From Aureispira sp. CCB-E (GTDB lineage Bacteria > Bacteroidota > Bacteroidia > Chitinophagales > Saprospiraceae), in the NCBI RefSeq assembly GCF_031326345.1, contig NZ_CP133671.1, forward strand, positions 1,116,001 through 1,180,000: DNA of 64,000 nucleotides, given 5' to 3'. A model generated the notes under the pieces. It was given only the letters and a program-made list of their open reading frames with translations. It did no database searches and was not told the DNA's origin. This document shows, one piece after another, positions 26,927 to 40,085 of the stretch. The position numbers and the translations under genes are program-made. Position 1 is the first letter of the stretch, and every line of letters starts with the position of its first letter.

Positions 26927-27172
26927 TTAGTTATATTTTTCGTAAAGTTGAGCTATTTTTTTAGCTAACTGATGGTCTTTTTCTGTAACCGTATTGCCTG
27001 CGTCATGTGTCGTCAATTCAATCTCAACTGTATCATAAACATTACTCCAGTTAGGATGGTGGGCTTGTTTTTCTGCCCAAAAGGCAACTTCTGTCATGAA
27101 AGAAAAAGCAGTAATAAAATCATTAAATTTAAAACTAGCTTTTAAGCAATTATTTTCTTCTTTAAACATCAT
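26927..27172 (-). CDS. phhB: Pterin-4a-carbinolamine dehydratase
   Basis: About 81 residues from the ATG at 27172, whose ATGA overlaps the hemD stop codon. A TTG start at 27196 is possible but lies deep inside hemD. The signature [20 protein letters not shown] followed by [13 protein letters not shown] holds the paired His residues and the conserved Trp of the active site. The enzyme dehydrates 4a-hydroxy-tetrahydrobiopterin, recycling the cofactor of phenylalanine hydroxylase, which is encoded at 37639 in this window. It may also serve another pterin pathway. Its place inside a haem operon is probably a convenience of transcription. Confidence 0.92.
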
Positions 27173-35275: not shown

Positions 35276-36355
35276 TTAGAAGTGATCTGTCCTCGCTAAT
35301 AAATAATAATCTATCAAAACTAGTGCTGCCATACTCTCTACAATCGGGACTGCTCTTGGTACCACACATGGATCGTGTCGACCTTTGCCCGTTACAGTAA
35401 CCGAATTGCCATTAACATCAACAGAAGGTTGAGGGCGCATGATAGTTGCAACAGGTTTGAAAGCAGTTCTAAAATAAATATCCATACCATTAGAAATACC
35501 ACCCTGAATCCCGCCAGAGTAATTACTAGTGGTTTTAATTGTACCATTATCATTGATAAAAATATCATTGTGTTCCGAACCTCTCATACAAACCCCGTCA
35601 AATCCAGAACCATATTGAAAGCCTTTGCAAGCATTGATACTTAACATAGCTTTGCCTAGTTCAGCATGCAAACGGTCAAAAATAGGTTCTCCCAATCCGA
35701 CTGGGCAACCTTGGATGACGCAACTAACGACACCGCCTGTTGTATCGCCTTCTTTTTTTATTTGCTTAATGTACGCCTCCATTTCTTTTGCTCTTGAAAT
35801 ATCTGGGCAACGTACAGGGGTTGCTTCAATTAGCGAAAAATCCAATTCTTCTTTAGGTTGCTGTATTTCCAAAGGACCAACTTGGCTGACATAAGCGGTA
35901 ATGACGATACCTTTTTGTTCCAAAATTTGTTGAGCGATGGCCCCTGCTGCTACTCTTGCTGCGGTCTCACGAGCAGAGGCACGACCACCACCACGGTAAT
36001 CTCTATTGACGTATTTTTGTCGATAAGTAAAGTCGGCATGAGAGGGACGAAGTTTATCTTTGATATGATCGTAATCCTTTGATTTATGATTGGTATTGGC
36101 AATGAATAGTGTTAAGGGGGTGCCCGTTGTTTTGCCTTCAAATACGCCCGATAGAATTTCAAATTCGTCTGCCTCTTTGCGTTGTGTGACGATTTTGGAT
36201 TGTCCTGGTTTGCGGCGATTGAGTTGGTGTTGAATATAAGCTAAATTTAATTCTATTCCTGCTGGACAGCCATCAATAACAACTCCAATACCTGTTCCAT
36301 GTGATTCTCCAAAGGTGGTAATTTTAAATATTTTTCCAAATGTGTTGCCTGCCAT
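35276..36355 (-). CDS. aroC: Chorismate synthase
   Basis: A 359-residue enzyme of normal length beginning [23 protein letters not shown] and substrate signatures [41 protein letters not shown] and [14 protein letters not shown] are present. It converts EPSP to chorismate, the last common step toward Phe, Tyr and Trp. It starts five bases behind aroB and is the last gene of that pair. Phenylalanine hydroxylase upstream links the group to aromatic amino-acid balance. Confidence 0.98.
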
Positions 36356-36360
36356 GATTT

Positions 36361-37416
36361 TTATAGATTATTATAATACGCTAAGGATTCTAAAATAAGT
36401 GCCTCAGAAGCATGTATGTTGATTTTGAATGCACCAATCTTATTCAATAAAGTGAAACAGATTTGTTGGTGTTCGTTTTTTTTATCTTGTTGAATGAGGG
36501 TGATAATATTGGTGGAATGAATTTTATGGAGGTCAAATTTAGCGTATAATGATTTTAAATATTGCCCAATCAAATCCAATTCATGTTGGGGCAAACCAAG
36601 TAGTTTGTAGCTCAAATAGCATTCTGCAATCATACCAATTGCAACGGCTTCTCCATGTAGTAAAGGTGCATCTGTTTCCCAGCTCAAACTTTCGATGGCA
36701 TGCCCAATGGTGTGCCCAAAGTTAAGGCTTTTGCGAATGTTTTCCTCGAAAGGGTCTTGTTCAACAATGGATTTCTTAATATACAAAGAATCTTTTACCA
36801 ACGATTCCCAATCAGAATGCTCTATGCAATCCATTTGATTGAGCTGTAGAAATGCCTCTTTATTCTGAATCAAAGTATGTTTGACAACTTCTGCATAACC
36901 ACTATACAGTTCGTTTTTGGGTAATGTTTTAAAAAAATCGGTATGCAAATAGACGGCTTGGGGATTGTTAAATAAACCAATACTATTTTTGACCAATTCA
37001 AAATCAACCCCTAACTTACCACCAATAGACGCATCTACTTGAGCTAACAATGTGGTTGGAATTTGTATAAAATCAATTCCACGCTTGAAAGTACTGGCGC
37101 AAAAGCCTCCCATGTCGCCAATAACACCACCTCCTAAGTTCAAAAGAACAGACTTTCGATCTGCTTTTTGTTGCATCAGAGCTTTCCAAATGAATTGGCA
37201 GGTTTCTATATTTTTGTGAATTTCTCCAGCTTGTATGGTAATAATATGCAACTCTATCCCTTCTAGAGCATTCTGAAGAATGGGCAAACAGTGTCGGTTG
37301 GTATTGCTGTCTACTAAGACAAAAATTTTAGAGTAAGCATTTGTTGTTAGTTGTTCTCTTAGGAGCGCAAAATTTTTATCTTGAAAATGAATAGAATAAT
37401 CCTGTAGTTGTATCAT
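36361..37416 (-). CDS. aroB: 3-dehydroquinate synthase
   Basis: A 351-residue NAD- and metal-dependent enzyme. The nucleotide loop [20 protein letters not shown] (about 91-110), [20 protein letters not shown], the metal ligands in [22 protein letters not shown] and [11 protein letters not shown] are all present. It closes DAHP to 3-dehydroquinate, the second shikimate step. Co-transcribed with aroC (five-base gap). The 222-base gap to phhA holds a 15-bp hairpin, so aroBC may have its own promoter or receive read-through. Confidence 0.98.
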
Positions 37417-37592
37417 ACGGTGTTTTTATTTCTCATAAAACCAATTCTTAGCGAGCAAGAAAGCAGAATTAGCTTAAATTATATTTTGTATTGGATTTTG
37501 AAGCAAGATTAACTCAAAAGGTTGGGAAAATGTGGAATAATAATTTTGAGTGCTTACTTAATTTTAAACAACGTCATTGTTACCAAATAACG

Positions 37593-37635
37593 AATCCGAT
37601 TACACTAGCATTTCATTAGATAGTGCAATCGGATT
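37593..37635 (-). terminator. Hairpin after phhA
   Basis: AATCCGATTACACTA (37593-37607) pairs with TAGTGCAATCGGATT (37621-37635) at 14 of 15 positions. The T run on the minus strand is weak, so read-through to aroB is possible. Confidence 0.6.
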
Positions 37636-37638
37636 ACT

Positions 37639-38421
37639 TTAGTTATTTATAGTGACGAGCAAATCTTCAAAATTAAATGCTTGACCATCTTCAACAACTA
37701 AATTGGACTCAACTGCTTGTTTGATTCGTTCTTTTAGTTGAGGCAAACTGTTGTATAGTTGTTGGTAAGATTCTGTAATGAAGTACTGTGCTTGAAACTT
37801 ATCTTTAATGTAAGGAGTACCTAATATTTTGTCCAAATCAAAAGCAAAATGCTCGGGTTGATCGCTTAGGGAGTAAACGGATTCACCAGGAGAGGATAAA
37901 ATACCTGCACCATAGATCTTAATCGTTTCCTCTTCCTTTATCAGTCCAAACTCAATCGTATACCAATAAATTCTCGCCATTAATTCAACCGCAGTGGGAG
38001 ATTCGATAAACTCTAGAGCTATTTGACTTAATCCGTTTAGAAATCCAGCAAAGTAGGGTTCACTCAATAGCGGAACATGACCAAAAACATCGTGAAACAT
38101 ATCTGGTTCTTCAATGTATTTTAGTTGTGCCAGACTCCGCATCCAAGTTGTAGCAGGAAATTGTTTTTGTGCTAATAATTCAAAGAAAGGCTTGTTGTCA
38201 ATAATTCCAGGAACAGCATAAACTTGCCAGCCTGTCAATGTCTTTAAGGCTTTATTTACTATCGTGAAACGCGGGATTTTGTCCTCTTCAAATTGAACTG
38301 TTTCGATGCCCTTAAGATAGGTTTTTGTAGCTCTAGATGTTAAAATATCCATTTGTTCTTGGTACATCAATGCCCATACTTGGTGGTGCTCGGCAGTGTA
38401 TTTATCATACTCTTGTCTCAT
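37639..38421 (-). CDS. phhA: Phenylalanine-4-hydroxylase
   Basis: A 260-residue monomeric bacterial aromatic amino-acid hydroxylase without a regulatory ACT domain. The iron ligands are visible as His110 and His115 in PDMFHDVFGHVPLL and Glu157 in WYTIEFGL. The pterin-contact region and GILSSPGESVYSL follow. It converts phenylalanine to tyrosine using tetrahydropterin and oxygen; the recycling enzyme phhB is at 26927. The gene is preceded by a 29-codon Tyr-rich leader ORF and a terminator, which suggests control by charged tRNA-Tyr. Confidence 0.96.
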   Translation of the reverse strand: MRQEYDKYTAEHHQVWALMYQEQMDILTSRATKTYLKGIETVQFEEDKIPRFTIVNKALKTLTGWQVYAVPGIIDNKPFFELLAQKQFPATTWMRSLAQLKYIEEPDMFHDVFGHVPLLSEPYFAGFLNGLSQIALEFIESPTAVELMARIYWYTIEFGLIKEEETIKIYGAGILSSPGESVYSLSDQPEHFAFDLDKILGTPYIKDKFQAQYFITESYQQLYNSLPQLKERIKQAVESNLVVEDGQAFNFEDLLVTINN

Positions 38422-38498
38422 GCTGTTTTGATTGTAATCTTTGAGTAATTATTAAATATCTTTTTACTCAAAAGTGAAGAAATATGGTTTGTTTAAAC

Positions 38499-38535
38499 AA
38501 AAAAAAATCCTAGCCCAAAAGTGGACTAGGATTTT
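38499..38535 (-). terminator. Attenuator terminator in the phhA leader
   Basis: AAAATCCTAG (38504-38513) pairs perfectly with CTAGGATTTT (38526-38535). The A run at 38499-38507 becomes a T run on the minus strand. No full gene ends here; the hairpin lies between the leader ORF and phhA, 78 bases before the phhA start. Its 5' arm can instead pair with AGTGGAC inside the leader ORF. Confidence 0.85.
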
Positions 38536-38560
38536 AAATTCTATATCGTTATCGTAGAAG

Positions 38561-38650
38561 TTACAAGCAACGGCATAAGACATCCTGTCCACTAAGTATA
38601 AAATACCAGTAGTAGTAAGATGTGTTAAAATATTTAGTTGCTGTACTCAT
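38561..38650 (-). CDS. Tyr/Phe/Trp-rich leader peptide of phhA
   Basis: A 29-codon ORF (ATG at 38650, TAA at 38561-38563) transcribed toward phhA. Residues 7-8 are Tyr-Phe and residues 12-17 are YYYWYF; in all five Tyr, two Phe and one Trp. Codons 20-24 (38583-38593 on the minus strand, AGTGGAC then GGAT) are complementary to the 5' arm of the terminator at 38526-38535 and its loop side (7 plus 4 base pairs). A ribosome stalled at the Tyr codons would leave this segment free to form an antiterminator. This is the classical attenuation layout; it fits an enzyme that makes tyrosine. Confidence 0.72.
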   Translation of the reverse strand: MSTATKYFNTSYYYWYFILSGQDVLCRCL

Positions 38651-38682
38651 TATTTGTTTTGTTCTTCAACGGAGTAATGCAA

Positions 38683-38713
38683 CGAATATAGGATAGCTAT
38701 ATTAAAAAAGCAA
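38683..38713 (-). promoter_or_regulatory. Possible promoter of the phhA leader transcript
   Basis: On the minus strand, TTGC (38710-38713) and TATATTCG (38683-38690) are 19 bases apart, close to the Bacteroidota consensus but with mismatches. The predicted start near 38676 would give a short lead of about 25 bases to the leader ORF. Confidence 0.4.
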
Positions 38714-38847
38714 GTTTTCATCGCATTATTATCAAAAGAGGAACAAAGTACTTGGCGATATTAAAATTTATACTAGTACGTATTAAACCTTTTCATTTCT
38801 TTCAACTCTAAGGAGGCAACAGGGTAATTTAAACACATTATTGTTTG

Positions 38848-39080
38848 ATAATACTCCGTTGATTATTGTTCGCTTTGTTACTCCCTTCGGTCGTGAGTTC
38901 GCTATGCTCGGTTCGCTCATGAGAGCGCAAGACTAGTTCCCTCTGGTCATGAACTTGGGCTTTTGTGCTAGTAGCACAAACCTACTCGGCAAGTTTAGTT
39001 TTCCTACGGAAAATATAAAAATCATCTTGCTGATAATTAGGTTAATACGATTTTTAAACGGGGTGATGGTTTAAGTAATT
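38848..39080. repeat. Composite palindromic intergenic repeat
   Basis: Starts with ATACTCCGTTGATT and carries two successive variants of the CTCCC..GGTC.TGA module (38881-38896 and 38938-38952), a GCTCGGTTCGCTCATGAG block and a TTTGTGCTAGTAGCACAAA hairpin (38962-38980). The module CTCCCTTCGGTCGTGAG recurs in variant form at 58857 and, inverted, at 18492 and 33740. Confidence 0.65.
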
Positions 39081-39122
39081 GTTCAAAAAATAAAATTAAA
39101 TATTCATAAAATAATAAATAAG

Positions 39123-40085
39123 ATGAAGCAAGTATTGTTAGTAATATTAGTAATAGGACTGGGTTTAAATGCCGTATGGGCGCAAGAAGGACATAAAAAA
39201 AGACATAAGCATCCTCAAAAATTAAATAAAGAAGCGCGAGCGGCTTTGCAAAAATTTCATAAGGAAGAAGTTTACCCAATCAAAAAGGCAGCACATGATC
39301 AATTTCTAGCAGCTTTGAAACAAGAGGATAGAGACTTTTTGGCACAAAAAAGAATAGAAGAAAAAGCCTTGCATACTGAAATGCGTTTACTACATAAGGA
39401 GATGAGAACATACAAAGAAACGGGTAAAAGTAGGGATGAAATCCGTGCAATGCGCCAAAGTAAGTTGGAGCCGTTAAGAGAAAAACGGAAAGCACTTATG
39501 GAATCTATGAAGCCTTTTATGGAGCGCAATAAGGATTTGATTAAAGAATCAATGGAACCTATGAAGGCAAATCATGAGGCGTGGAAAGCGAAGAAAGAAG
39601 CTATATTAGATAAATATTTATCGGAAGCAGAAAAAGCAAAACGAAAAGAATGTAAGGAGGAAAGAAAAAAAGGAGGAGCACACAAAACCTCAGAAGGACA
39701 TCCTAGAAAAGGAAAGCGGGCAGTTCGATTTGTTTTGTGGGATGGCGAAATGAAAGCACCCAAAGAACGCAAAGGCAACACTTCAATCAACTCAAAGACC
39801 AATATTGAAGAAGTGCAACAGCAGGGATTTACCTTGAATACATACCCTAATCCAGCTATTAGTCAAACTACAATTTTACTGAATTTAGCAGAGACCTCAA
39901 CAAAAGTAAAGGTAAGTTTGACCAATGCAGAAGGGCAACAAGTTTGGAGTAAAAACTACAATAAATTGGCAGCAGGCGAGCATCAAATTGATGTTAATCT
40001 CCAAAAAGTGGCAAGTGGACAATATTTTTGTACTGTAGAAGTTGGAGAAGAGCGTATGACAAAGCCATTGGTTGTCAATAAGTAG
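39123..40085 (+). CDS. Type IX-secreted, highly charged helical protein
   Basis: A 320-residue protein with a signal peptide (about 1-20, ending AVWAQ), a Lys/Glu-rich helical body (about 25-205) resembling periplasmic Spy/LTXXQ-type proteins in composition, a short linker, and a type A sorting domain (about 235-320; NTYPNPAISQTTILLNL, KVSLTNAEGQQVW, GEHQIDVNLQKVASGQYFC, KPLVVNK). It should be exported through the type IX system and anchored or released outside. The body is rich in Met and basic residues but shows no catalytic motif. Function unknown; metal or stress binding is only a guess from composition. Confidence 0.8.
   Translation: MKQVLLVILVIGLGLNAVWAQEGHKKRHKHPQKLNKEARAALQKFHKEEVYPIKKAAHDQFLAALKQEDRDFLAQKRIEEKALHTEMRLLHKEMRTYKETGKSRDEIRAMRQSKLEPLREKRKALMESMKPFMERNKDLIKESMEPMKANHEAWKAKKEAILDKYLSEAEKAKRKECKEERKKGGAHKTSEGHPRKGKRAVRFVLWDGEMKAPKERKGNTSINSKTNIEEVQQQGFTLNTYPNPAISQTTILLNLAETSTKVKVSLTNAEGQQVWSKNYNKLAAGEHQIDVNLQKVASGQYFCTVEVGEERMTKPLVVNK

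Follow-up and report, generated by a model that had tools for sequence, protein, structure and literature searches.

A probable tyrosine-responsive, ribosome-mediated attenuator in the leader of phhA from Aureispira and other Bacteroidota

The gene phhA of Aureispira sp. CCB-E (Bacteroidota, Saprospiraceae) lies on the minus strand of the window analysed here, by which we mean a stretch of 64,000 nucleotides of contig NZ_CP133671.1 (positions 1,116,001 to 1,180,000) from a genome of 7.39 Mb, with all coordinates counted from its first letter. This gene (37639..38421), presumed to be the regulated one, encodes a phenylalanine 4-monooxygenase of 260 aa which matches TIGR01267 with 275.4 bits, over the curated cut-off of 264.75, and PF00351 with 172.4 bits (cut-off 22.7), confirming the identity given to it in a preliminary description of this DNA. 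It is followed on the same strand, after 222 nt, by the 3-dehydroquinate synthase gene aroB (36361..37416) and, directly after it, by the chorismate synthase gene aroC (35276..36355). A terminator scan detected no terminator-like site between phhA and aroB, and co-regulation of phhA with aroB, and perhaps with aroC, is possible. A pterin-4a-carbinolamine dehydratase, which recycles the cofactor of PhhA, is encoded on the minus strand at 26948-27157, about 10 kb from phhA and not adjoining it. The PhhA of Aureispira sp. CCB-QB1 is the same, and about 4.2 kb of DNA surrounding its phhA match the window with 99.1% identity.

Upstream of phhA, and also on the minus strand, there is an open reading frame of 29 codons plus TAA, MSTATKYFNTSYYYWYFILSGQDVLCRCL (38561..38650), with similar tyrosine-rich or aromatic leaders at the phhA genes of relatives. 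Its codons 12-17 (38600..38617), Tyr Tyr Tyr Trp Tyr Phe, are written TAC TAC TAC TGG TAT TTT, and both the frame and its YYYWYF run are present as first described. The frame is followed by an intrinsic terminator (38504..38535), a hairpin of 14 pairs with a loop of 4, and by its T-rich tail, TTTTTGTTTA, so that the observation itself, a tyrosine-rich reading frame, then a terminator, then phhA, is real. The hairpin had been called a perfect 10-bp terminator; its core, ATCCTAGTCC/GGGCTAGGAT, does contain ten pairs, one of which is a G-U wobble. Among the 10 Rfam matches listed for 37400-39300, no T-box or other cis-regulatory RNA reached its gathering score, the best being rnk_pseudo with 24.6 bits against 55.

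The leader can be divided into four minus-strand regions, numbered as in classical attenuators. Region 1 (38608..38622) overlaps the Tyr codons and, in the minimum free energy fold of the free full-length leader, pairs with region 2, with 9.8 expected pairs. Region 2, AGTGGACAGGAT (38582..38593), forms the 5' side of an antiterminator whose other side is region 3, ATCCTAGTCCACT (38520..38532), common to antiterminator and terminator, and region 4, GGGCTAGGAT (38507..38516), is the 3' side of the terminator. The competing pairing between regions 2 and 3 had been predicted as 11 pairs with a small internal loop; the competition stands, and the helix found has 12 pairs, one more, with a one-base bulge. 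Likewise, the Tyr codons do precede region 2, at a distance of 9 bases (after Tyr16) or 15 (after Tyr14) rather than the 20 or so first given. The 1:2 helix was absent from the preliminary description; since the stretch carrying the Tyr codons (38622-38608) pairs in the unconstrained fold with the 5' side of the antiterminator, the classical set of 1:2, 2:3 and 3:4 helices is complete.

The fold of this leader is much more stable than expected from its composition (z = -5.1, none of 200 shuffles as low), and its 2:3 duplex was equalled by none of 300 shuffles of region 2. In an RNA ending before region 4, a ribosome placed on codons 12-16 leaves the 2:3 helix with 10.9-11.7 expected pairs, and one on codon 17 leaves it with 7.9. 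The same helix also forms in this RNA without a ribosome (11.6 pairs) and with the ribosome at the stop codon (11.7). In this cut RNA of the window leader the 2:3 helix beats the 1:2 helix, and once region 4 is included the terminator is present at all ribosome positions tried. Since the 2:3 helix forms whether or not the ribosome stalls, equilibrium folding is not decisive for stalling, and on this model the choice between structures must be kinetic, like that in the trp leader of Escherichia coli.

The leader recurs before phhA in relatives. The 110 loci with a PhhA match were reduced to 90 distinct ones by dropping 20 (same contig or species, 5; identical upstream region, 3; weak match or other hydroxylase, 9; N-terminus missing, 1; less than 300 nt upstream, 2), L032 being one of those left out as a strain of the same species. 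Among these 90, which are the nearest relatives of the query and thus an uneven sample, 29 have upstream of phhA an ATG-initiated reading frame with at least four Tyr in seven codons, and such runs occur in loci from several Bacteroidota families. By the same rule, runs of other amino acids were found in four loci for Asn, three for Ala, two for Ser, and one each for Pro, Ile and Thr, all others giving none, and the reverse strand gave no Tyr run in any of the 90. Upstream regions of other genes in the same loci that are free of neighbouring genes contain a Tyr run in 1 of 161 cases, against 11 for Leu and 5 each for Lys and Phe. That such a frame would simply have arisen by chance next to an unrelated terminator, in regions that look AT-rich and where the Tyr codons TAT and TAC should be common, has a vanishingly small probability: dinucleotide-shuffled upstream regions yield 5 Tyr-run frames in 1800, against 29 in 90, and the other amino acids with AT-rich codons, Asn, Ile, Lys and Phe, form runs in only 4, 1, 0 and 0 of the 90 loci.

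Looser aromatic leaders were recognised at seven more loci (L005, L006, L017, L028, L097, L105 and L111), chosen by eye because a terminator follows, which raises the count to 36 of 90 and leaves 54 with neither kind of leader. A hairpin before a T run follows all 36 leaders, including the seven picked for having one, and is poor in one (L092). In an even sample of the phylum, 68 of the 392 Bacteroidota genomes drawn have a PhhA match at 1e-30; the strict leader is present in 4 of them (the host locus, L116, L127 and L142) and a strict or looser one in 7 (adding L130, L139 and the weak L119), the other 61 being without. A quickly built PhhA tree with 155 rows requires 15 changes in leader presence, 7 of these changes being forced by well-supported branches and one being false, as L116 was scored as having none and yet carries the same leader as L056 (L028 is not in the tree). 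These changes indicate that the leader was gained or lost several times; a divergent clade of 41 PhhA rows on this tree has no leader.

Several neighbouring observations should be recorded here. Four loci (L120, L121, L123 and L103) have before phhA a short leader with the conserved peptide PTPRTY[VI]HHS[YH] and no Tyr run, again followed by a terminator, and the conserved wording of this peptide hints at selection on the peptide itself. Three loci of one family (L129, L134 and L187, family f28) have a leader-like frame without a Tyr run and a strong terminator about 20 nt before phhA; L129 and L134 share KCF and N.RP-like stretches in it, and in L129 a stretch inside the frame matches, by eye, an arm of the terminator. 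Locus L053 is on a metagenome-assembled contig titled Thalassovita (Pseudomonadota), its phhA groups among the Bacteroidota on the tree, and the contig is possibly mis-binned.

What recurs in these leaders is the architecture. The gap from the last aromatic codon to the 2:3 pairing is 5-18 nt in 32 of the 36 leaders, and the 2:3 duplex is equalled by no more than 15 of 300 region-2 shuffles in 20 of them, L017 being scored on another frame, L004 on a shorter run, and L102 and L106 from longer starts. Over 41 leaders, with L017, L102 and L106 now entered with their proper peptides, the native 2:3 duplex has a mean of -13.3 kcal/mol, against -9.6 when region 2 is swapped between clades and -9.5 when region 3 is swapped; over 20 clade means, of clades drawn by hand and not fully independent, the native pairing is the stronger (one-sided Wilcoxon p = 1.3e-4). 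Compared with the swaps, the native duplex ranks among the top 10% in 23 of the 41 leaders when region 2 is exchanged and in 18 when region 3 is. The shared-arm antiterminator therefore holds for the relatives as a set, with six of the 41 being no better or hardly better than swaps: in L040, L078, L106, L119 and L127 the native pairing is weaker than that of region-2 swaps on average, and in L107 it is roughly equal. Six others (L012, L017, L049, L050, L057 and L079) are only marginally better. One Aureispira leader, L040, has a YYCYYY run and a strong terminator of unrelated sequence, without a good antiterminator partner.

Within the six Aureispira leaders, five of them distinct, 60 of 60 cells are paired in the terminator and 66 of 72 in the antiterminator, and changes on both sides are found at 4 of 10 terminator pairs and 3 of 12 antiterminator pairs, in cores picked by hand, which leans towards pairing. 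Positions 9 (in L006) and 10 (in L005) of region 3 change along with both of their partners, and such joint change would be expected of two competing helices on one shared arm. The conservation in relatives on which the preliminary description had staked its reading was thus found, with Tyr runs recurring and antiterminator and terminator covarying. The peptides differ across clades outside the aromatic run, whereas the run, its spacing to region 2 and much of the pairing recur, which argues against the frame being an independent small protein, with the hairpin as its own terminator and phhA transcribed from a promoter further downstream. We find this alternative very improbable. A small gene would also look like a frame plus a terminator, and promoter-like matches on the minus strand at 38628-38600 and 38566-38538 lie in the leader region, although matches of this kind are no commoner in the scan than in shuffles; however, the Bacteroidota-type promoter boxes precede the leader frame, and the amino acid of the run fits the product of the enzyme at each of the four genes of the host genome described below.

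A scan for E. coli-type promoters was uninformative (6 sites, against 8.2 in shuffles), and the Bacteroidota -7 box was used instead. Its consensus, TAnnTTTG, is reported for Flavobacterium psychrophilum, where it occupies positions -12 to -5 relative to the transcription start (PMC9723704). In the window, a promoter-like stretch (38683..38713, minus strand) consists of a TTG at 38713-38711, 20 nt, and TATATTCG at 38690-38683, with one mismatch to the consensus, the TTG and its spacing having been read by eye; in three relatives (L004, L005 and L028) the box is exact, TACATTTG. Of 40 leaders, 26 have an exact TAnnTTTG at a distance of 8-39 nt before an ATG in frame with the leader; in 21 it begins 12-15 nt before the ATG, and in 15 at exactly 13 nt. 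The starts counted here include every in-frame Met that precedes the run, and several leaders come from close relatives. For 388 ATGs of long frames of the same loci, with one start per frame and unverified frames included, the box is at 12-15 nt in 5 and within 8-39 nt in 41. With the box 12-15 nt before the ATG, those leader peptides should begin at, or one base from, the end of the transcript, and many leader peptides may therefore be translated from the extreme 5' end of the mRNA. The Aureispira boxes lie 28-30 nt before the ATG where they are exact (in the same three relatives) and 40 nt before it, with one mismatch, in the window, so that a short 5' untranslated region is expected there.

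From this we tentatively propose, at a little under an even chance, a tyrosine-specific phhA attenuator in Bacteroidota which would often be leaderless: the transcript would begin at the start codon of the peptide, and the first ribosome would load on a bare 5' end and pace the polymerase from the first codon. The trpL transcript of Sinorhizobium meliloti begins with the leader ATG (PMC7298713), and roughly half of the phhA leaders are predicted to resemble it; unlike these, trpL is a Trp leader of an alphaproteobacterium. If the proposal is true, phhA would serve specifically in tyrosine biosynthesis and be controlled directly by Tyr-tRNA, as one case of a common scheme that places a Trp, His, Phe or Tyr run before the gene concerned with that amino acid.

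Attenuator-like leaders are also found at other amino acid biosynthesis genes of the host genome. A trpE-like gene, which scores 415 bits with TIGR00564 and falls short of its cut-off (517.7), has the leader ALVAWWWTTSLRWRE with the run AWWWTT; the hisG leader contains HTHHIHHLLH; and pheA has two tandem leaders, TTTYFFFFSLSN and NLYYFFFFRKG, the second read from a hand-chosen internal ATG, with the runs YFFFF and YYFFFF, each of these leaders being followed by a terminator. Their 2:3 pairing is equalled by 1 (trpE-like), 13 (hisG), and 6 and 52 (pheA) of 300 mononucleotide shuffles, so that the pairing of the second pheA leader is weak. The pheA gene in question is the prephenate dehydratase gene at 1382045-1382587 of contig C1 (locus L144); tandem Phe-rich leaders, each with a terminator of its own, are also seen before pheA in genome G003 (see also L146). 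At all four genes examined (trpE-like, hisG, pheA and phhA), the amino acid of the run is the product of the enzyme, and the run before phhA accordingly points to tyrosine. A reading through queuosine-containing tRNAs, considered for the frequent Tyr, His and Asn in several leaders, was dropped, as the leaders of pheA and of the trpE-like gene are built on Phe and Trp codons, respectively.

Tyrosine control of phhA also fits the physiology predicted from the genome. The prephenate/arogenate dehydrogenase family of TyrA, PF02153, was searched for in 60 relatives, 8 of them Aureispira, and none of these 8 gave a match over its cut-off (the one in G007 lies below it), with a match in 13 of 14 control genomes; PhhA was found in 7 of the same 8. 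The host genome encodes prephenate dehydratase (PheA), pterin carbinolamine dehydratase and 4-hydroxyphenylpyruvate dioxygenase. The host therefore probably makes its own phenylalanine and, with PheA present and TyrA not detected, PhhA, the only tyrosine route found, is probably its source of tyrosine; the dioxygenase points to tyrosine degradation as well. Loss of TyrA as the reason for having the leader showed no clear link across relatives, in genomes of unstated completeness: of 27 genomes with the leader, 19 had no PF02153 match above 100 bits and 18 none over the curated cut-off, the corresponding numbers being 16 and 10 for the 23 genomes without it. Within Aureispira, a PF00800 match is absent from 6 of 9 genomes (G001, G002 and G004-G007), five of which have a PhhA match and four the leader, and a hisG match is absent from 4 of 9, which suggests amino acid auxotrophies in these genomes.

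Several sequence features by which ribosome-mediated attenuators are recognised were found here: a short leader frame with a codon run for the amino acid made downstream, an intrinsic terminator between this frame and the structural gene, an antiterminator sharing an arm of the terminator just after the control codons, a 1:2 helix involving these codons (in the window only, and in the free full-length fold), and compensatory change of the competing helices (in the swap test and the five distinct Aureispira leaders). Together with the recurrence in relatives, the lack of a detected TyrA and the cognate leaders at the trpE-like gene, hisG and pheA, these features support the tyrosine-sensing attenuator originally suggested, and we consider it very likely that phhA is under a classical attenuator of this type and depends on charged tyrosyl-tRNA or, possibly, in Aureispira, on charged aromatic tRNAs in general.

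We infer the following course of events. Transcription would begin upstream of the leader frame, as the promoter-like boxes before the leaders suggest. When charged Tyr-tRNA is ample, the ribosome would pass the Tyr codons, region 2 would be covered or paired with region 1, and regions 3 and 4 would form the terminator, leaving phhA untranscribed. Upon shortage of Tyr-tRNA, the ribosome would stall on the Tyr run and cover region 1, and the exposed region 2, just downstream of the ribosome, would pair with region 3 while region 4 is still to be transcribed. The polymerase would then read through into phhA, and possibly into aroB and aroC, and PhhA would convert phenylalanine to tyrosine. This mechanism needs a ribosome close behind the polymerase, and a widespread group of such leaders, many of them apparently at the 5' end of the mRNA, would allow both the coupling of transcription to translation and leaderless initiation to be studied in Bacteroidota.

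The signal itself can be read in another way. Since the Aureispira runs mix Tyr, Trp and Phe (YYYWYF, YFYWFF, YFYWFY and YYW), they may sense aromatic shortage more broadly, and a real attenuator could thus respond to a general aromatic shortage, or mainly to that of Trp or Phe, and tune a phhA-aroB-aroC operon, a reading that overlaps with the tyrosine one and differs from it in the signal alone. The position of aroB and aroC downstream on the same strand agrees with it, as does the aroR leader of Corynebacterium glutamicum, which has a Phe-Tyr-Phe sequence and whose operon is unaffected by Tyr availability (PMC11802643). However, many runs outside Aureispira are pure Tyr or Tyr plus His (YYYYYY, YYYYYYY, YYYHYY), the pheA gene of the same genome has Phe runs, so that codon choice follows the gene, and the 222 nt between phhA and aroB make the operon uncertain. 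On balance we regard this broader signal as rather unlikely, and keep tyrosine as the preferred one.

A switch responding to tyrosine starvation before a phenylalanine hydroxylase would imply a biosynthetic role of this enzyme in these bacteria, against its usual catabolic reading, and the Tyr-run leader is a sequence mark that could separate biosynthetic from catabolic hydroxylases in genomes. Bacterial phenylalanine hydroxylases are usually described as catabolic, and an anabolic role is reported from mutant data for Dyella japonica, Legionella pneumophila and Echinicola vietnamensis (PMC7311316). The route in these three species has the same role in tyrosine biosynthesis as that proposed here, and the accessible part of that account does not mention regulation of the hydroxylase; E. 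vietnamensis belongs to the Bacteroidota like the host, but has TyrA (PMC7311316). In Pseudomonas aeruginosa, phhA is under the activator PhhR (PMC1173090). In the accessible text of the open-access literature, we found no description of a tyrosine-specific leader, of a tyrosine-specific ribosome-mediated attenuator or of a phhA attenuator, which agrees with the preliminary remark that none was known for this gene in Bacteroidota.

Ribosome-mediated attenuators of the E. coli trpL type are known for trp, his, phe, leu, ilv and thr operons. The phhA leader shares with them the cognate-codon leader frame, the alternative 1:2, 2:3 and 3:4 helices, the intrinsic terminator and the biosynthetic gene downstream, and differs in the amino acid, tyrosine, and in the gene. 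The aroR leader of aroF in C. glutamicum is similar in that its peptide has Tyr and Phe codons and precedes a gene of the aromatic pathway, but has only Phe-Tyr-Phe, answers Phe and not Tyr limitation, and concerns another gene in another phylum (PMC11802643). Within the same phylum, "strong clues" for leader-peptide attenuation before amino acid biosynthesis operons, and a conserved 5' element at pheA, are described for F. psychrophilum, in a study whose main text does not contain the words tyrosine or phenylalanine (PMC9723704). For Bacteroides thetaiotaomicron, short frames "reminiscent of leader peptides" are reported (PMC7366714), and attenuation of pheA-tyrA is predicted in a database (PMC1173090). 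The mechanism is therefore known, and reported also in Bacteroidota, while phhA as its target, tyrosine as its signal and the breadth of its distribution appear new as far as the open-access literature goes, the unusual features being the tyrosine signal and, probably, a leaderless leader in many species.
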